NCBI RefSeq assembly: GCF_003352385.1
Contig: NZ_CP031243.1
Span: 1,909,062 to 1,973,061 of the forward strand
Length of the DNA: 64,000 nt
Direction of reading: 5' to 3'
Origin: Haemophilus haemolyticus
Lineage (GTDB): Bacteria > Pseudomonadota > Gammaproteobacteria > Enterobacterales > Pasteurellaceae
Shown: in pieces, positions 1-8,780 of the stretch
Numbering within the stretch: position 1 is the first letter of the stretch
Layout of the letters: every line of letters begins with the position of its first letter
Position numbers and translations under genes: made by a program
Notes under the pieces: model-generated
Told to the model about the DNA's origin: nothing
What the model saw: only the letters and a program-made list of their open reading frames with translations
Databases searched by the model: none

Positions 1-50
1 CACAGGCTGAGCCACCAATGGACGGATTCGATGACGATATCCCGTTTTGA
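1..50 (+). CDS. ssb: Single-stranded DNA-binding protein, C-terminal end (partial)
   Basis: Only the last 15 codons are inside the window. They end in DDDIPF, the acidic tip that bacterial SSB uses to recruit repair and replication partners. The gene enters from the left edge and stops at TGA 48-50. The acidic tip and the terminator just downstream support the call; the OB-fold domain is outside the window. Confidence 0.9.
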   Translation, partial: QAEPPMDGFDDDIPF

Positions 51-94
51 ATTCCATATACATAAATTATGTAAAAATACATCATAATAACCAG

Positions 95-127
95 AGAGAA
101 ACCTTATAAAACAAGGTTTCTCTTTTT
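95..127 (+). terminator. Rho-independent terminator of ssb
   Basis: An 11-bp perfect stem (AGAGAAACCTT at 95-105 with its complement at 113-123) is followed by a T run. It lies 45 bases after the ssb stop. Confidence 0.85.
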
Positions 128-134
128 ACGTTTA

Positions 135-162
135 TTATAGCCAGACGAAAGTCTGGCTATAA
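135..162. repeat. Perfect 12-bp inverted repeat with GAAA loop
   Basis: TTATAGCCAGAC at 135-146 is perfectly complementary to 151-162, leaving a GNRA-type tetraloop. There is no T run on either side, so a simple terminator is not obvious. It sits between the ssb terminator and the qat operon. Confidence 0.6.
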
Positions 163-168
163 TTAAAT

Positions 169-199
169 AACTCAAACCATTAGGATAATGGTTTGAGTT
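169..199 (-). terminator. Perfect 14-bp inverted repeat, possible end of qat transcript
   Basis: AACTCAAACCATTA at 169-182 pairs perfectly with 186-199, leaving a 3-base loop. Read on the minus strand it follows qatD by about 75 bases and is followed by an AT-rich but not pure T stretch. It may end the qat transcript; this is inferred from position and stem strength. Confidence 0.45.
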
Positions 200-274
200 G
201 AGATTGTAGGTAGAGATATTATAAGGAATTTGAGTTATTGGAAGTAATTGATAATTTTGAGGTAAGCTTATGGT

Positions 275-1006
275 TTATATATGTTTTGAAACTAAGCTAA
301 AGAGATTTTGTCTCAGCATACTTTCAGCTTCTGAAATATTCATCCTCCACATATCTGCCAATATTGCAATGGCAATATCAGCATTCCAAGGGAATAAAGC
401 TTGTGTTTTAAAATTCCCAAAAGGTCCATCAGTTTCAATTAATATTTTTTCTATTGGCATAAGTTGAGCTAAATCATCCCCCTTTTTACTACTTAACATT
501 GCGGGGCCTACAGAAAAATAGCAGCCCATTTCAATCGCTCGTTTTAACTGTTGCTTTGTGCCTGAAAACCAATGAAGGATTGGCAGGTTATCATTTACTT
601 GACTTAATTCATCTAGTACAGCATTTGCACTCATCCTAGAATGTATACTTAAGATTTTTCCGCCAGATTTTGCTGAGCTTCTTAAAATATGGCGAAAGAC
701 CTTTAATTGTGTTTCCCAATGTATTTTAAACTCTTTTCCGCCATCCAAACCAATTTCACCCACATAGCGAGTTTGGTTTAATAATGCATCAAACAATTCC
801 AATTCTTGCCAACGTTCATGAGCTAGTTGGGGATGCAATCCTAAGGCGGTACGAATACGAGGACAATCTTTTGCTAATGAACTTGTTCCACACCACGCTT
901 TTGGTGTAGTTGTAACAGATAAGACATAAATATTTTCATCTTTACATCGTTTTGCAACGTATTGTGGATTAGTATATAAATCCAAATGGCAATGCATATC
1001 CATCAT
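275..1006 (-). CDS. qatD: QatD, TatD-family metal-dependent DNase of a Qat defence system
   Basis: This 243-residue protein belongs to the TatD amidohydrolase family. The metal ligands are visible: HCH at residues 5-7, Glu84 in VGEIGLDG, His122, His145 and Asp193 in ETDGP. TatD proteins cleave DNA with divalent metal. The ATG overlaps the qatC stop by four bases (ATGA), which indicates translational coupling. It is the last gene of the qatABCD order known from Qat anti-phage systems. A housekeeping TatD is possible by sequence alone, but the three upstream genes make QatD much more likely. No uptake signal lies in the gene. Confidence 0.88.
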   Translation of the reverse strand: MMDMHCHLDLYTNPQYVAKRCKDENIYVLSVTTTPKAWCGTSSLAKDCPRIRTALGLHPQLAHERWQELELFDALLNQTRYVGEIGLDGGKEFKIHWETQLKVFRHILRSSAKSGGKILSIHSRMSANAVLDELSQVNDNLPILHWFSGTKQQLKRAIEMGCYFSVGPAMLSSKKGDDLAQLMPIEKILIETDGPFGNFKTQALFPWNADIAIAILADMWRMNISEAESMLRQNLFSLVSKHI

Positions 1007-2319
1007 AATATTTGGTTCTCTATTAAAAGTTGCTCCACTTCATCCAACCCATTTATAAAAACATTTGCAAACTGATTTAATTGTTGAGTGGGTAGTGAAC
1101 CACTTTGTAAAACCCATTGATTGATGTTGCGATGATTTTTTTGACGAATAGCACTTATTAAAGCAAATAAATCATCTCTTCTGTCCTGATTTATTAAAAT
1201 TTGCCGAATGTCATTAAATTCATATTGGGCATCATTGGTAATACCAGCATAATGCAATGACGCTCTACGAATCAGACATGGAACACAAACCCCGCATTGT
1301 TGATTTTTGCGTTTCCAATGGCTACACGAAACAGTATCAGGGATAATTTGCTTTAATAATGGTAAATTTTTGCATTCTGCTATCATTTGCCCTTTGGTTT
1401 TAAATTGATAAGGATTTCTTAAAGTGAAAGGAATATTGACCGCAGTGAGAAATTTTTGTATTTCTTGGATAAAATAAGGGTGAGTGGTACGGGTACTTAA
1501 AGTGCCTACTCTGCGTACTGTTAAAGGTGCATTGATTGAAATTACCCCATTTTCAGGAACTAAAATATCAATCTTTTTTTGCGCGACTTCCTGTAATGCA
1601 TAAGCTGATACAATGGCAAATGCCAAAAAATTTAAACTTCTAGTTCGCATTGTGATTTCAGTGCTTTTTCCATTATTTGAATGAGGTTGTGCAATCGCAT
1701 TAAATTGGGAAAATTGATTAATATAACCATTTCGGTTAAGTTGCTGAATAATAGCTTGCTGGCGTGATTTATCACCTTTATAAGAATGACTAACTAAAAC
1801 TGGTGAATGCCCCAACTCCAATAAATCAACTACCCCAATTGCTGAATCTAACCCACCTGAAAATAAACAAACACAGTCCTTATTTCTTAGATCTACCAAT
1901 TTGGTTCTGCCACTTAATTTATAGGGCTGTGGCGGTAACTGTCCGCCTGCCTGAAAATCAAATTGCCAAATATCACCACTTAAAAAGTGTAAAATCTGTT
2001 CTAAATGAACTTTGTTTGCTTGCCAAATATCTGGCTGGCACAATGGTAACGTGATAGAAAAGGAACGACACCAGCCATTTGCAGTATCTTTTCGCAAAAT
2101 AAAAGTATCTGCTGCTGTAACTGCCATTGCAATAGTTAGAAAATCCATTACTTGATTATTGAGTTCAACACCTAATCTTCTTACTCTATCCAAAACCATA
2201 TTACCAATATGAGCGATTTGTAGACTTTTATCACCCATACCATAAAGACGAATAGGTAAAACACCATTAGGCAAATTTTTTAATTGCTCAATATCGTGGT
2301 GAAAAAATAATTGATTCAT
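1003..2319 (-). CDS. qatC: QatC, QueC-like PP-loop ATPase of a Qat defence system
   Basis: This 438-residue protein is related to QueC (preQ0 synthase). It has the PP-loop SGGLDS at residues 154-159 and a zinc-type cysteine cluster (Cys332, Cys342, Cys345, Cys348) near the C-terminus. It is far longer than QueC (about 230 residues) because of an extra N-terminal region of about 140 residues, as in Qat systems. The chosen ATG overlaps the qatB stop (TGATG); an upstream in-frame ATG at 2400 lies inside qatB and is less likely. By family it would make or attach a deazaguanine-like modification; the real substrate in Qat defence is not known to me. Confidence 0.88.
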   Translation of the reverse strand: MNQLFFHHDIEQLKNLPNGVLPIRLYGMGDKSLQIAHIGNMVLDRVRRLGVELNNQVMDFLTIAMAVTAADTFILRKDTANGWCRSFSITLPLCQPDIWQANKVHLEQILHFLSGDIWQFDFQAGGQLPPQPYKLSGRTKLVDLRNKDCVCLFSGGLDSAIGVVDLLELGHSPVLVSHSYKGDKSRQQAIIQQLNRNGYINQFSQFNAIAQPHSNNGKSTEITMRTRSLNFLAFAIVSAYALQEVAQKKIDILVPENGVISINAPLTVRRVGTLSTRTTHPYFIQEIQKFLTAVNIPFTLRNPYQFKTKGQMIAECKNLPLLKQIIPDTVSCSHWKRKNQQCGVCVPCLIRRASLHYAGITNDAQYEFNDIRQILINQDRRDDLFALISAIRQKNHRNINQWVLQSGSLPTQQLNQFANVFINGLDEVEQLLIENQIL

Positions 2320-3059
2320 CAATAATTCTCCCATTCTTCCCAAATTTCCAAAATAACTTGGTTTTGAATTTCTTGCATTTGTTCGGTTGTTAACTGACAA
2401 ACATCATCCGTAAATTTAGGGGCAAGCGTAATATCCACCACCTCATGAACTAATTGTCTCAAATCATTTTCAACATTTGAAATTTGAACAAGATCGCCAC
2501 CTTTATTCCACGCCTTACCAGCATCGTGTACAATTTGCAGAAAAATACTTTCGGTTAAATAACAAATCATCATTTTACCAATGACTTCAGTGGTAATGCT
2601 ATTTTCATCAAAAGTTGTCATTCCTTCCAATGCTTCTGATAAAGCAATATTCATTGCAGAACGAATTTTGTCTGAATCACCGTGATGACCAGCCAAAAGT
2701 TCGGTAATTTGGTTGATGGCTTCATCGCAAGGCTGACCATTTAAACTATGTAAATTAACCGAATATTGTTGCTGCTGGCTGCCTGAAAAAATACCAAATA
2801 AACCCGAGCCTGCTTGGGTAATTTTCCCCAATTTTTGGACAGCTATATGCTTACCACCACTGGCTTTTCGTGCATAATGCCCAAGTGCTTTACGGACATC
2901 ATCACGCCCACCGCTTCGTACAGCCCTACCGATTGCTTGACGCAATCCCTTTAATCTCTGTGGGTCTGGTGTTTGTAACGATGTCTGACTATCATCAACC
3001 CAAGAGGGCAATAGAGGCGAACGACCATTTGGCCCTACGCTAGATTGTGAAGTACCCAT
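2319..3059 (-). CDS. qatB: QatB, conserved Qat defence protein of unknown biochemical role
   Basis: The 246-residue protein starts with a Gly/Ser/Pro-rich segment (MGTSQSSVGPNGRSPLLP), characteristic of QatB, followed by a mostly helical-looking body. It has no enzymatic motif that I can identify. A strong Shine-Dalgarno AAGGAG lies in the last codons of qatA, six bases before the ATG. The stop overlaps the start of qatC. Identity rests on the N-terminal signature together with its place between the KAP ATPase and the QueC-like gene. Confidence 0.85.
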   Translation of the reverse strand: MGTSQSSVGPNGRSPLLPSWVDDSQTSLQTPDPQRLKGLRQAIGRAVRSGGRDDVRKALGHYARKASGGKHIAVQKLGKITQAGSGLFGIFSGSQQQQYSVNLHSLNGQPCDEAINQITELLAGHHGDSDKIRSAMNIALSEALEGMTTFDENSITTEVIGKMMICYLTESIFLQIVHDAGKAWNKGGDLVQISNVENDLRQLVHEVVDITLAPKFTDDVCQLTTEQMQEIQNQVILEIWEEWENY

Positions 3060-3062
3060 TGC

Positions 3063-4829
3063 TTACTCCTTGTACCAAGTTTCACTTTTTAATCTTTTGT
3101 TCAACCACGGATAGTTAATGTCTTTATTTTTCAATTCAGCAATAAAGCGAGTTAAAATTTTTGCACCGTCTTCTGAATTTGCCGCTAGCAAACAAGCCCC
3201 CATAAAACCATCTGGGCTTTTATCCCAATTATCCAGTTTTCTTAATTGTTCAATCAATGCTTCCATAACGGAGATTTGTTCATCAATTGTTAATCCCTGA
3301 ATAGCGTTCTGAGTATTTTGTGAGCCTGTTCTTGATTTAGTTACAAGTAAAATACTTAAAACATCTTGGGCTTTTTGAGAAAGTTGAGCAGTGTAAGTAT
3401 TTAGCGGAATGGTTTCTCTAGATAAATAAATTGCTGCTCGTAAATTAACATCAGATAATTTTGGCTCTAATTTTACCCATTCTTTGATAAATGTTTGAAT
3501 GGATTTATTTTCGGAGAGCATTGATAAATTTTGCTCATTGTTCTTTTCAAGCCCTTTTAATAATTCAGAGTTACCATCTTCTTCATTGATACTCTGATAA
3601 AATTTTGTTACCACATCAGAATCCACGCATCGCTCAAAAATAACCAACTTGGTAATAATCGCTTCATCTAATGACATTTGACGCTTGTTTGCGATTTTGG
3701 TACGCATTTTAATGGTATTTAAAATGCGTTTTACAATTCTAGGATTACCGTGAATATTAGGTGAATTTGCTAATAAAGGCGCTACTCTGTTTGCGCGTTC
3801 AAAATCTGACAATAGAGCTTGATTGTGTTGCTCTTCAATAGTTTTGGCCACTTCTTCTGGATTTAAAGATTGACTTTTCCAAGATTGTTGCAAATGAGTT
3901 TCTAAAAATTGGCGTAAGCTTGCTAATTTTCCGGTTGGTACTTTTTGATGAATGGCGTACAGCATATATAAATACGCACGAATTTCAAGCACACCTGCTT
4001 TGGGTACACGAATAGGAATCTGTATGAGCTTATCCAAATAATCAATTTGATGACGATACGACAAATCTTTGTAATGCTCCGCAACTGAATGGCGAATCAT
4101 TTCCTCGTCGGCCGCGATAATGAATGCCGTCCGATTTAAAAACAAAAATAAACGAATCGCCTCCAATGTCTGAATAGCATTAGCAGGCAGACAACGGTCA
4201 AGATTATCAATTACAATAACCAGCTTTTTACCTAAATCCTGTAATATTTCGCTATATTCTTTTCTAAACTCATCTATTTGTTGTGGTGGTGTTTGTTTCT
4301 CTTTTGGCTTGATAAGATTTTTCCCTGAATCAACAAGATTTTTCCCTACTTCTACAATTTGCTTACTTTCTGTTTCATTTTGAACACCATCCAATGATTC
4401 TTTTGCTGTTTCAAATGTTTTGGAAATTAAGCCAAAAGTTGGCACTCCTGCAGCCAACGCAGCTCCTTCGGCCATTAAACCAAGCAAACGCAAACCATTA
4501 ATTCTCGCAAATAAGTTTTTGGATTTTTTCAAGATGGTTTCTTCATCTTTGGCGGCCTGAATCAAATGGCTTGCAATAGTTTCCAAAAGCGCCGCTCTGG
4601 CATCATCAAATCCCTGATAGAGCCAAGCATCAAATTTAATTATAATCCACTCATCAGGCTTGATTTGTTGCTCAATCAAATTTAACAAAGAGGACTTACC
4701 TGCTCCCCAGTTACCAAAAATACCTATTGAAACTGGTAGCATAGCCTCAGATTCCAATATTTCAGTAACAATTTGGGATACCTCACCAAAATTGAGATAG
4801 TCTTCTTTAGATTCAGTATCTGACCACAC
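3063..4829 (-). CDS. qatA: QatA, KAP-family P-loop NTPase of a Qat defence system
   Basis: This 588-residue protein has Walker A GNWGAGKSS at residues 39-47, Walker B VIVIDNLDRC at 204-213, and the KAP motif FIIAADEEMI at 236-245. A small hydrophobic segment at about 113-135 lies inside the NTPase insert, where KAP proteins often carry membrane segments. The start codon is GTG with AAGGGT upstream; no better ATG exists. As first gene of the operon it is expected to be the ATP-driven sensor or scaffold, which is an inference from Qat organisation. No uptake signals occur in this gene or the rest of the operon. Confidence 0.87.
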   Translation of the reverse strand: MWSDTESKEDYLNFGEVSQIVTEILESEAMLPVSIGIFGNWGAGKSSLLNLIEQQIKPDEWIIIKFDAWLYQGFDDARAALLETIASHLIQAAKDEETILKKSKNLFARINGLRLLGLMAEGAALAAGVPTFGLISKTFETAKESLDGVQNETESKQIVEVGKNLVDSGKNLIKPKEKQTPPQQIDEFRKEYSEILQDLGKKLVIVIDNLDRCLPANAIQTLEAIRLFLFLNRTAFIIAADEEMIRHSVAEHYKDLSYRHQIDYLDKLIQIPIRVPKAGVLEIRAYLYMLYAIHQKVPTGKLASLRQFLETHLQQSWKSQSLNPEEVAKTIEEQHNQALLSDFERANRVAPLLANSPNIHGNPRIVKRILNTIKMRTKIANKRQMSLDEAIITKLVIFERCVDSDVVTKFYQSINEEDGNSELLKGLEKNNEQNLSMLSENKSIQTFIKEWVKLEPKLSDVNLRAAIYLSRETIPLNTYTAQLSQKAQDVLSILLVTKSRTGSQNTQNAIQGLTIDEQISVMEALIEQLRKLDNWDKSPDGFMGACLLAANSEDGAKILTRFIAELKNKDINYPWLNKRLKSETWYKE

Positions 4830-5198
4830 TAAATTACCCTTATTTATAAAAATATAGATTTTTATATACTAACACATTTTTCAACAAGCATTTTTAATGT
4901 TTTTATAATGATAAGTATATAGAAGGTATCAAGATTGATGGATGAATTATCGAAATTAAAAGATATTAGGAAAAGGGATGGAAGTGGAATAAAACAAATT
5001 AAACTACTATAATCGACCAGCTTTTCCTTCTTTCAAGGATTTTATAGATAAACATTGTCAATTTGGTATCTCATAGCAAGCACATTGTGTAAAAAGTGAA
5101 TGACTAAAACCTAATTATTTGATTTTAAATAACTTTATGATTTACATTTTACTATAAAATAGAAACAACCATTTTAATTCAAACCAACTCAAAACAAA
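4830..5198. other. AT-rich intergenic region upstream of qatA
   Basis: About 370 bases separate qatA from the kefBC terminator. The part nearest qatA is very AT-rich and should hold its promoter, with several TATAAT-like hexamers and no clear single choice. A 24-codon ORF (4938-5012, plus strand) has no convincing ribosome site. I see no tRNA, repeat or gene relic here. Confidence 0.5.
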
Positions 5199-5227
5199 AA
5201 GGAAGCAATTTGCTTCCTTTTTTAGTT
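5199..5227 (-). terminator. Terminator of the KefB/C-type gene
   Basis: AAAGGAAGC pairs with GCTTCCTTT across a short AATTT loop. On the minus strand it is followed by TTTTTGTTTT, 20 bases beyond the antiporter stop codon. Confidence 0.8.
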
Positions 5228-5246
5228 GAAATGTATTGAAAGAATT

Positions 5247-7097
5247 TTAAGAATTATTATTTGACGTTTCTTCAGATTCCTCAATCAATATTCCTGCTGT
5301 TTCATCATTTAGCGCTTGAGCATCTACATGAGGTTTAATAAATGGTTTTGGCGTCCAATATTTTTTTAAGATTTCATTAGAAAAACCATGTAGAACTTCC
5401 TCATTTAGACGTTCTTGATCCAATGCTCGTACTTCTTTAATAACTTCATCAGCCTCAATCTTATCAATGCCAAGTTTCATTAGTGTTGCTTGGCTAAGTG
5501 CAATGGCGGATTCAAAAGTTTCACGCACAATAAAATCCACATCTTGCTTAATTAGGCTCACCGTCGTTTTTCTATCATAAGTGCGGGTTAAAATCGGCAA
5601 GTTTGGATAAGCCCCTTTAAGTTGGCTCACAATCGTTTCAATGCGATCTGTATCATTAATACCAATCACCACACATTTAGCTTTTTCAATTCCCGCGGCG
5701 TAAAGTACATCCAAACGAATACCATCACCATAATAGACTTTAAAACCAAATTTTGCCGCAGCACGGATATTTTCTATATTACGATCAATCACTGAAACGC
5801 TGATGCCTCGGATTAATAATGTTTGACATACGATCTGGCTAAAGCGGCCAAAACCAATTACAAGCACGTTATCTTCTAAATCATCAATAGGCGACAGATC
5901 GCTCGTATCTGGTTGAGTCGCTAATTTTCTCTCTCCAGATTGCGCTAATTTACGAGTAATTTGTGTAATAAATGGAGAAAACAACATGGAAATAATTACC
6001 GCTGCAGTAAAAGTGGCATTTTCATGGTTGCTCATTACGCCTGCTGTTGTTGCGGCAGAGAAAAGTACGAAAGCAAATTCACCACCATGCGCCAAAAGTG
6101 ACATTCTTCCCACTGCTTCCCTATGTTCTAAGCGAGTAATTCGAGCAACAACATACACAGAAAGTCCTTTACCAATAATATAAAGGAATACAATTCCGAG
6201 TAGTAATAACCAGTGATTAAACACTAAGCTCAAATCCAATGACATGCCCACGCCCATAAAAAACAGGCCAAGCAATAGACCTCGAAATGGCTCGATATCC
6301 GCTTCTAATTGATGACGGAACGAAGACTCTGACAGCATAACGCCTGCTACAAATGCCCCCATTGCCATTGAAAGTCCACCTATTTCCATGGCTAATGCTG
6401 CGCCAAGTACAACTAATAAAGCCGCCGCTGTCATCATCTCTCGAATATGTGCTTTAGAAATTAATCGGAATAATGGATTCATTAACCATTTACCCGCGAC
6501 AATCAAGCCGATTACCGCCCCTAATGCGATGCCGATTGACATCCAATCGGTATGAGTGCTTTCTTCAGAATGAGGCGCAAGAAACGCCACTGATGCCAAT
6601 AATGGCACAATAGCAATATCTTCAAAAATTAAAGTCGAAATAATTCGCTGACCTTTAGATGTACTGGTAATACAACGTTCTTCTAACGTTTGCATCACAA
6701 TCGCGGTTGAAGAAAGTGTAAATCCCATACCTGCTATAAACGCCACTTCTTTCGGTAAATCAAGTAAATAAATCCCCGCAAAAGTAAGCAGAACACCACA
6801 CAATCCAACTTGTAATAATCCCCGCCCAAAAATTGCTTTTTTCATAGACCAAAGCCGTTCAGGGTGCATTTCAAGCCCAATAATGAACAAGAACATCACG
6901 ACACCCAATTCAGCCAAATGCACGACTGAAGCCGGCTCTTGAATAACACCGAATACTGAAGGACCAATCATACAACCAGCCACTAAATACCCTAGCACAC
7001 TACCAAGCCCTAGGCGTTTAAATAACGGCACAATAGTCACGCTCGACGCAAGCAAAATTACGGTTTTAATCAGATCTGAATCAGCAAGATGGGACAT
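5247..7097 (-). CDS. kefBC: KefB/KefC-type glutathione-regulated potassium efflux antiporter
   Basis: This CPA2-family protein has about 12 hydrophobic segments in residues 1-380, then a cytoplasmic RCK/TrkA-N domain with the dinucleotide motif VIGFGRFSQ. KefB/C proteins release K+ in exchange for H+ when glutathione adducts accumulate, protecting against electrophiles. The start chosen is ATG at 7097, preceded by TTGGAG; a TTG at 7109 would put the ribosome site inside the gene. The 616-residue length fits the family. I cannot separate KefB from KefC. The gene is single, with its own terminator. Confidence 0.82.
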   Translation of the reverse strand: MSHLADSDLIKTVILLASSVTIVPLFKRLGLGSVLGYLVAGCMIGPSVFGVIQEPASVVHLAELGVVMFLFIIGLEMHPERLWSMKKAIFGRGLLQVGLCGVLLTFAGIYLLDLPKEVAFIAGMGFTLSSTAIVMQTLEERCITSTSKGQRIISTLIFEDIAIVPLLASVAFLAPHSEESTHTDWMSIGIALGAVIGLIVAGKWLMNPLFRLISKAHIREMMTAAALLVVLGAALAMEIGGLSMAMGAFVAGVMLSESSFRHQLEADIEPFRGLLLGLFFMGVGMSLDLSLVFNHWLLLLGIVFLYIIGKGLSVYVVARITRLEHREAVGRMSLLAHGGEFAFVLFSAATTAGVMSNHENATFTAAVIISMLFSPFITQITRKLAQSGERKLATQPDTSDLSPIDDLEDNVLVIGFGRFSQIVCQTLLIRGISVSVIDRNIENIRAAAKFGFKVYYGDGIRLDVLYAAGIEKAKCVVIGINDTDRIETIVSQLKGAYPNLPILTRTYDRKTTVSLIKQDVDFIVRETFESAIALSQATLMKLGIDKIEADEVIKEVRALDQERLNEEVLHGFSNEILKKYWTPKPFIKPHVDAQALNDETAGILIEESEETSNNNS

Positions 7098-7157
7098 TAA
7101 TAGCTCCAATGATGAAATGGAATATAATTGTATTCTAACTAGTTTCCTTTAAATAAA

Positions 7158-7189
7158 AAAGTGAGCATATCTCATATTATGCTCACTTT
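7158..7189 (-). terminator. Terminator of the slam gene
   Basis: AAAGTGAGCATA at 7158-7169 pairs with TATGCTCACTTT at 7178-7189. On the minus strand the stem is followed by TTTATTT, about 35 bases after the slam stop. Confidence 0.8.
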
Positions 7190-7222
7190 AGAAATGGATA
7201 AACCTAAGTTCAATTAATTAAC

Positions 7223-8691
7223 TTAAAATGTCTTTTCAAACAACATATTCACATTCTTCTGAGTGTAAGAATACATTTCTGGAATATTGCTATCTTGTTT
7301 ACGCCAGCTTAGTTGGAGTTTTGGTGTAATTCCCCAAATATGCCAGTCGCGTTTCCATAGGGATAAATTTATGCCGTAAATTTTATCTTCTCGACGTTTT
7401 CCAAAAGAAAACAAATTGAGATTACCAAGTTTGGCAATATCTTTAAATTCACGTTTCATTATGGATAAGCCGAGACGTGAGGAAATACCCCAATTCCATT
7501 CTTGTCCCCAACCTAAACGTAGGCTTTTACTGTCTGAACCATATTGACGAACCTTCGTTCTTTCTGCCATAAAATCAGAACCGAGATAGAAAAACTGTTT
7601 CGGTGTTCTTGCCCAAAGTAAGGTTGCGGAAATCAGTTTGTTATTACCGTTTTGTGATGTACTGTCTAAATAACGTTGTTTTGAAAACTCTCCCGCCGTA
7701 AAAAGTTGCCAGTTTGGACTTAACCAGCGAGAAAATTCCACCCTTGCCCCATTAGACCAACGGTAACTTTCGCCGCCATACCAACGTTTTTCATAAAAAG
7801 GTTTAATGCGGAAATTTTGCTTCGCGGTTTTATGTGCATAGCCAATAAAAGTGCGGTTGGAAATATCATCAAATTCATGATTATCCCAATAGCTCTTTCC
7901 CCCAAACTCATTGCCCACCGTGAGGTAATTAGAGCTCCATAAATTAAAATCTCTCGAAATATCGAGTGAATACGCCAAACCGTGGCTGTTTGTGGCATCA
8001 TCGATTCCGAACGTGTTAAGGTGCCACCATTATTTAATACGACCGTTTTGCCCTCACCAACATTATTGACATTGGTATCACGCACATAATTAAAAGAAAA
8101 ATCCACATTCCAGCTATCACGTTCTTTTAAAGCCTCTAAATAAGCATCCATTAAACGCTTAACTTGAGGCGGTAAATCCTCTGCGGTTTGTGCTTTTTCA
8201 AATTGGTCTTTAGCAGCCCCATCTTGTTTTTGATTGAATAAAGCGATAGCCAGTTCAATTCGCACAGGGTTTAAATTTGGATTTTTCGCCAAAATTTCGC
8301 GATATTTATCAATGGCTGCAGTATAGTTTTCCGTTAGCGCAGCCAATTTTCCTTCCGCAAAGTGTTCCATAATCGGGTCACGATTTGGAAAAGTGCGGTA
8401 AATTTCCAGCAATTTTTTTATCATTTCTGGATTGCGTGCGTAAATGGCACGAGTTAATAATTCGTGGGTTAAAACTGGGTTTTGTTTAAGTTGCTCAAGG
8501 GTAATTTGAATTTGTTCGACTTGCTCTGTGCCTAAGGGCGGTAAATTTTGTTCGCGTTTTTCAAGTTTGGCGACATTAATTTGTGGTTCAAGTTCGGTTT
8601 TAATTGGTGTTTGACGAATATCTAGTGCCGTTGTTTCTGCTAAAGCAAGAGCGGGGAAAAGTGCAGTAAAAAAGAAAGCAATACTTTTCAT
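7223..8691 (-). pseudogene. Slam-type surface lipoprotein assembly modulator, broken by a one-base frameshift
   Basis: The reading frame runs from ATG 8691 with a cleavable signal peptide (cut after LALA), TPR-like helices to about residue 210, and then shifts frame near 7978-7985 into the C-terminal beta-barrel, which ends in Phe. Total length is 1469 bases, one short of a whole frame; a missing base at ACGGTTTGG would restore T-A-T-G-L-A-Y-S. Slam (TPR plus DUF560) proteins move surface lipoproteins across the outer membrane, and the neighbouring lipoprotein gene is its likely client. Two uptake signals lie inside (near 7848 and 8390), so the gene is long-resident. A sequencing error remains possible. 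Confidence 0.8.
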
Positions 8692-8780
8692 AAAATGAGT
8701 AACTTTAAGTAAATATTTATAAACAAACAATAAGTTGAAAAATGGCGGACAAAAATCCGCCAAATATTGTTTTATAACGA

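Follow-up and report, generated by a model that had tools for sequence, protein, structure and literature searches.

The window analysed here, a stretch of 64,000 nucleotides from the Haemophilus haemolyticus genome (contig NZ_CP031243.1, positions 1,909,062 to 1,973,061), carries on its minus strand, at positions 275-4829, a complete qatABCD operon of the Qat anti-phage defence system. The operon as such is ordinary; what makes it interesting is its host, and the implication for the substrate of QatC, a QueC-like PP-loop enzyme proposed to attach 7-carboxy-7-deazaguanine (CDG) to the partner protein QatB (carboxydeazaguanylation; PMC13329287). We consider it likely that this is an intact, horizontally acquired system in which QatC modifies the QatB N-terminus with a substrate other than CDG made by the host, given that this genome, like others with Qat, was found to lack both QueD and canonical QueC.

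The operon consists, in the order A-B-C-D, of qatA (3063-4829; GTG start, 588 amino acids (aa)), encoding a KAP-family P-loop NTPase, qatB (2319-3059; ATG start, 246 aa), encoding the proposed protein substrate of QatC, qatC (1003-2319; ATG start, 438 aa), and qatD (275-1006; ATG start, 243 aa), encoding a TatD-family metal-dependent hydrolase. All four frames are open, with a length that is a multiple of 3 and a single, terminal stop; qatA and qatB are separated by 3 bases, and the B/C and C/D junctions overlap by 1 and 4 bases, respectively. In 6/6 aligned relatives qatA has an ATG where the window has GTG, which supports this start, and the ATG call for qatC, whose mechanical open reading frame starts earlier, at a TTG at 2400, matches the length of 438 aa in most near relatives. 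The original prediction, made from the sequence alone, of a complete operon adjoining ssb, with intact frames, key residues in place and gaps or overlaps of four bases or less, was borne out in each of these respects, with the 3' end of ssb lying downstream of qatD and ending near position 50.

Its identity with Qat is beyond chance, as the four adjacent genes match the PADLOC profiles for QatA (PDLC02210, 1094.9 bits), QatB (PDLC02212, 461.1 bits), QatC (PDLC02214, 504.7 bits) and QatD (PDLC02215, 332 bits), with E-values ranging from 5.4e-100 to 0. Profile searches had been named beforehand as the test that might place the proteins outside the Qat families; PADLOC placed all four inside, as did NCBIfam for QatC (NF041925, 418.9 bits, cut-off 280) and QatD (NF041926, 331.7 bits, cut-off 230), whereas QatA (424 bits, cut-off 600) and QatB (82.6 bits, cut-off 100) scored below the curated NCBIfam cut-offs. 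Because PDLC02210 and PDLC02212 fit closely, the QatA/QatB subgroup of the window probably diverges from the NCBIfam models. Pfam searches gave KAP_NTPase for QatA (PF07693, 192.8 bits), QueC on the C-terminal part of QatC and TatD_DNase for QatD (PF01026, 156.1 bits), and matched no family to QatB. Sequence searches of the PDB yielded as nearest solved structures for QatC 9vlk (E 1.6e-60) and 9zee (E 5e-52), and for QatB 9vll_A (E 7.7e-10), which is labelled a DUF5610 protein and whose entry also contains QatC, and the QatB chain 9zee_A (E 1.3e-6); the window is thus distant from the solved Qat complexes (9zee/9zef and 9vlk/9vll), of which 9zee was taken as the P. aeruginosa protein by residue count rather than by stated organism. 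The matches of QatD were the TatD proteins 9xsn (E 1.3e-69) and 3gg7, and QatA matched no solved structure in the PDB.

The gene set and order, the MGTS start of QatB and the families of QatA and QatD are those of the P. aeruginosa and E. coli qatABCD operons (PMC13279940), with which the window also has in common the SGGxDS motif, the Thr-x-Thr site and the zinc cysteines of QatC. In the window these are SGGLDS (residues 154-159), STRTTH (275-280) and cysteines 332, 342, 345 and 348; QatB combines the N-terminal MGTS with PSWVDD at residue 18, containing the conserved P-x-W motif. QatA has a Walker A-like GNWGAGKS at residue 39 and a Walker B-like VIVIDNLDR at residue 204, and QatD has HCH at residues 5-7 and ETD at 191-193. 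In an alignment of QatC proteins, SGG.DS and a Thr matching T278 occur in 78/78 rows, and at the position of T280 there are 74 rows with Thr and 4 with Ser; entry into the alignment required SGG.DS plus [ST]T.[ST].H in one frame, so that the conservation of both sites is partly built in, and the filter lost one locus (L089) and the rows count another twice (L086 and L094). A scan of genome contigs, with titles that include Gammaproteobacteria, Cyanobacteria, Bacillota and Actinomycetota, gave 68 QatC loci, 67 of which have a frame starting with [MV]GTS on the same strand as QatC, QatB being recognised in this survey by start, strand and length and not by profile. In the exception (L074), QatC lies 306 bases from the contig end, and in L089 the [MV]GTS frame is about 2.3 kb away from the QatC match. 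Against seven relatives, two of which (L106 and L108) contain only part of qatA, dN/dS is 0.10-0.26 in each of the four genes, a sign of purifying selection that reflects history in all hosts, not in this host alone. Because the frames are open, the key residues are kept and dN/dS is low, the operon is probably functional here, as had been predicted.

In the Qat systems studied so far, a 1:1 complex of QatB with QatC is sufficient against phage lambda, and QatA and QatD affect the range of phages stopped (PMC13279940). QatC binds ATP and requires the SGGxDS serines and T278/T280, and QatB requires the MGTS glycine and residues 16-22, a G2D change killing defence (PMC13279940). In the same study CDG was supplied and yet did not show up in the crystal, T278/T280 were found to occupy the place of the CDG-reading Tyr/Asp of QueC and Cap9, and changing Thr/Thr to Tyr/Asp abolished defence; the QatC reaction was not reconstituted, and the paper, a structural study of 2026, calls it a key open question. 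A close comparison is with Cap9 of type IV CBASS (cyclic oligonucleotide-based anti-phage signalling system), a QueC-like ligase that catalyzes the N-terminal deazaguanylation of a CD-NTase (PMC11996544, PMC13279940). In both systems the target is the N-terminal glycine of a partner protein, although for Qat this is only thought to be so. By contrast with Cap9, QatC of the window has Thr/Thr (in STRTTH) where Cap9 has the CDG-reading Tyr/Asp, the four genes include neither a CD-NTase nor Cap10, and the host gave no QueD match. QatC also has the PP-loop ATP motif and zinc cysteines of canonical QueC, but is much longer (438 aa against a model of 201 positions), with long extensions of a kind already described (PMC13279940), and scores 25.5 bits against a TIGR00364 cut-off of 150.3.

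QueD is the first enzyme dedicated to the known route to CDG; QueE turns its product into CDG, which is then consumed by QueC (PMC13329287). In the genome carrying the window (one contig, 100% complete), no match to PF01242 (QueD) was found, and no canonical QueC, the TIGR00364 search agreeing with that for PF06508, in which QatC alone scored over the cut-off. In these two respects the host differs from P. aeruginosa and E. coli. A further PF06508 match of 19.5 bits at 736858 was rejected as a second QueC: it lies in a 425-aa frame that has counterparts of 397-430 aa in all 10 genomes of the genus, and which is most likely TilS. Among these ten, QueD is present in 4 and QueC over the cut-off in 5 (QatC not counted), and the genus seems, from such gene content, to be losing the queuosine (queCDE) pathway. 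Of the five with QueC, one (G004) has a queC gene interrupted by a stop codon, and another (G007) has queC with neither queD nor queE within 1.5 kb on either side.

The same combination was sought in other Qat-bearing genomes. From the 68 QatC loci 50 were selected, and 46 genomes were searched for PF01242 (the QueD fold, PTPS) and TIGR00364; only genomes lacking both genes were counted, because absence of QueD alone is an unsafe criterion in draft assemblies. Neither gene was found in Nocardioides luteus (G038), Mycobacterium yunnanensis (G040) and Caproicibacter fermentans (G042), and a metagenome-assembled genome without QueD but with a 78-bit QueC-like frame (G051) was treated as ambiguous. 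All four Qat proteins are recognised by PADLOC in the Nocardioides and Mycobacterium loci, QatB with only 34-38 bits, while in Caproicibacter PADLOC matched QatA and QatB (24 bits) and the end of the contig cuts QatC short. A search of 394 Actinomycetes gave 11 QatC matches, of which 10 were kept, including 3 that exceed the curated cut-off; the eleventh (G417) was rejected, as its 23-bit match is overlapped by a 135-bit QueC-like match and lies beside a PTPS gene. An [MV]GTS frame accompanies QatC in 9 of the 10, and an MGTC frame in the remaining one. PTPS occurs in 82 of the 394 genomes and canonical QueC over the cut-off in 11, all 11 of which have PTPS (Fisher p 2e-8). The ten Qat-bearing genomes, by contrast, include none with QueC over the cut-off, three with PTPS and seven with neither (Qat versus PTPS, Fisher p 0.44), a sample of ten limiting the power of this test. 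The three with PTPS (G073, G289 and G307) are also those that carry a divergent QatC clade, with STRSVHP instead of STRTTHP.

Altogether, 10 of the 56 Qat-bearing genomes tested for both genes (the genome of the window, the 46 and 9 further Actinomycetes) have neither, or 11 when the ambiguous genome is included. On a QatC tree of 56 rows the lacking state changes at least 7 times, with that genome counted as lacking; the tree leaves out three loci (L094, L031 and L045) and those of untested genomes, and contains several long branches that make deep placements unsure. The co-occurrence result is not stated in the available parts of PMC13279940, with 0 mentions of QueD in its main text, or of PMC13329287, and is not claimed here to be unpublished.

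In the probable mechanism, QatC would bind QatB and, with ATP at the SGGxDS site, activate a small molecule for attachment to the N-terminal glycine of QatB, exposed after loss of the first methionine. The modified QatBC pair would form the defence core, with the KAP NTPase QatA and the TatD hydrolase QatD affecting which phages are stopped, and the operon of the window would act as other Qat systems do. Were home-made CDG needed, the distribution of Qat would be expected to track that of QueD, as the distribution of QueC does, and in the Actinomycetes it does not; this, together with the Thr/Thr replacement, favours another substrate, and host-made CDG is most likely not what QatC attaches to QatB. 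The balance tips slightly towards a stronger proposal, that QatC does not deazaguanylate at all and loads QatB with something that all cells contain, either another carboxylate or a base carbonyl. TilS, also a PP-loop enzyme, offers an analogy for QatC acting on a base carbonyl, whether in a nucleotide or in the nucleic acid of a phage.

Several results weigh against a substrate other than host-made CDG. A QueD-fold protein is present in 37 of the 46 Qat-bearing genomes, although in 6 of these (G018, G019, G020, G026, G028 and G047) the only matches are of 25-35 bits and in long frames, and in 7 of 9 Qat-bearing Pasteurellaceae, including four (G454, G465, G530 and G543) for which the search covered QueD and not QueC. 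TIGR00364 scores over the cut-off in 38 of the 46, 5 of which have no PTPS match, showing that gaps, decay or missed genes can make QueD seem absent. For the CDG route in the genome of the window, the negative result concerns QueD and canonical QueC, with QueE and CDG uptake not searched. CDG might also be taken up from neighbours, and it is possible, if doubtful, that QatC uses CDG as Cap9 does, with hosts lacking QueD importing it or Qat working only when CDG is around. The QueC fold and ATP site of QatC and the Cap9-substrate glycine motif of QatB (PMC13279940), the carboxydeazaguanylation already proposed and the many QueD-fold proteins in Qat-bearing genomes are consistent with such use, as is the account of PMC11130926, in which preQ0, preQ1, queuine and queuosine (Q) are described as salvaged and members of microbiomes are believed to exchange Q precursors. 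The term CDG occurs 0 times in the text of that paper, however, and no CDG uptake is mentioned there; the loss of the CDG-reading Tyr/Asp, the loss of defence on their restoration and the failure of Qat to track QueD in Actinomycetes argue against it too.

A substrate other than host-made CDG also has to be weighed against the operon being a recently imported passenger, which could be idle here, in which case the missing QueD of the host would say nothing about QatC. This we regard as improbable. QatC is present in only 1 of the 10 genomes of the genus (and in 9 of 140 in the family Pasteurellaceae), and the DNA is 91.7% identical to that of Neisseria elongata over 4.75 kb; the sequence AAGTGCGGT, an uptake sequence, occurs 0 times in the operon against 3.3 expected (P 0.035), a weak indication, as the neighbouring kef gene also has 0. 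A further Pasteurellaceae genome (G530; L109, L111 and L117) has qatC split across two frames, with full-length matches to qatA, qatB and qatD. Against an idle passenger stand the intact frames and motifs, the dN/dS values, with the reservation about history given above, and the nine other Qat-bearing genomes, in separate parts of the QatC tree, that also lack both genes. That QatC is instead the working QueC of the host, the operon doubling as a queuosine gene, is suggested by its being the sole PF06508 protein over the cut-off in the genome, but is hardly credible and was rejected on its TIGR00364 score; in addition, there is no QueD to feed it, and E. coli QatC cannot replace QueC (PMC13329287).

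The operon appears from its relatives to have been acquired horizontally. Besides the DNA of Neisseria elongata (L024), that of Haemophilus sputorum (L025; 90.2% identity) is similar, in both cases over the whole operon, which in these two genomes lies at other chromosomal sites, with no ssb or uvrA match in the flanks; unlike the host of the window, both have QueD-fold and QueC matches. Downstream, homology ends at 161-163 with four loci (L026, L027, L103 and L106) and at 265-275 with the other matching relatives, so that the segment between ssb and qatD (161-274) is common to some relatives. Upstream, homology extends to 4910-5183 in those relatives' loci that reach so far. The non-coding upstream segment (4830-5183, minus strand), a putative leader or promoter region, has an outer part that is 85-90% alike upstream of qatA in L024, L027 and L028, with one stretch missing from the window, and appears to move along with the operon in some relatives; an Rfam search of window positions 1-8000 gave no match. 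Protein identity to G465 is 97.9% for QatC, 87% for QatA and 89% for QatB, suggesting a mosaic operon, as recombination would give.

In 4 of the 9 Qat-bearing Pasteurellaceae (that of the window, G465, G478 and G487), Qat lies tail to tail with ssb, with uvrA next (ssb and uvrA matches being present in L004), and ssb appears to be a site of repeated insertion. The ssb-adjacent loci (L113, L114, L115 and window positions 1-274) may mark a hotspot for defence genes. The upstream neighbour of the operon (5247-7109, minus strand) is a KefB/C-type exchanger (PF00999 and TrkA_N), and kef lies beside Qat in the window alone, with no kef match in the 13 relatives' loci examined. Further upstream, at 7223-8763 on the minus strand, is a gene resembling SLAM (surface lipoprotein assembly modifier) in two overlapping frames, one with the TPR part (PF24575) and the other with PF04575, which may reflect a frame break, phase variation or a sequencing error.

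Phages or prophages may be further carriers of Qat-like genes. Single-sequence scans of viral contigs with QatC and QatB gave no relatives, and an alignment scan gave seven IMG/VR loci (L119-L125) with QatC relatives of 26-57% identity (weakest E 8e-5). In the Pasteurella phage vB_PmuM_CFP3 (OQ025560, Peduoviridae), a 186-aa hybrid frame (L012:4733-5293) directly follows a tail-fibre gene and a fibre-assembly-like gene and matches window positions 2304-2611 (minus strand), which take in qatB sequence and the junction with qatC, at 82% DNA identity. Its residues 6-91 match phrog_3342 and residues 88-186 the QatB profile (151 bits). The frame may be what is left of Qat cargo, or it may encode a decoy of QatB with the potential to bind QatC.

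Intact Qat operons in genomes lacking QueD and QueC constitute a natural experiment on the QatC reaction and make the question of CDG testable, since in such hosts any modification of QatB is unlikely to derive from CDG that the cell itself makes by the known route. If QatC does not deazaguanylate, Qat would be a separate branch of protein-modification immunity, working without 7-deazaguanine synthesis in hosts such as the present Haemophilus-type bacterium and the Mycobacterium, Nocardioides and Caproicibacter that carry Qat.

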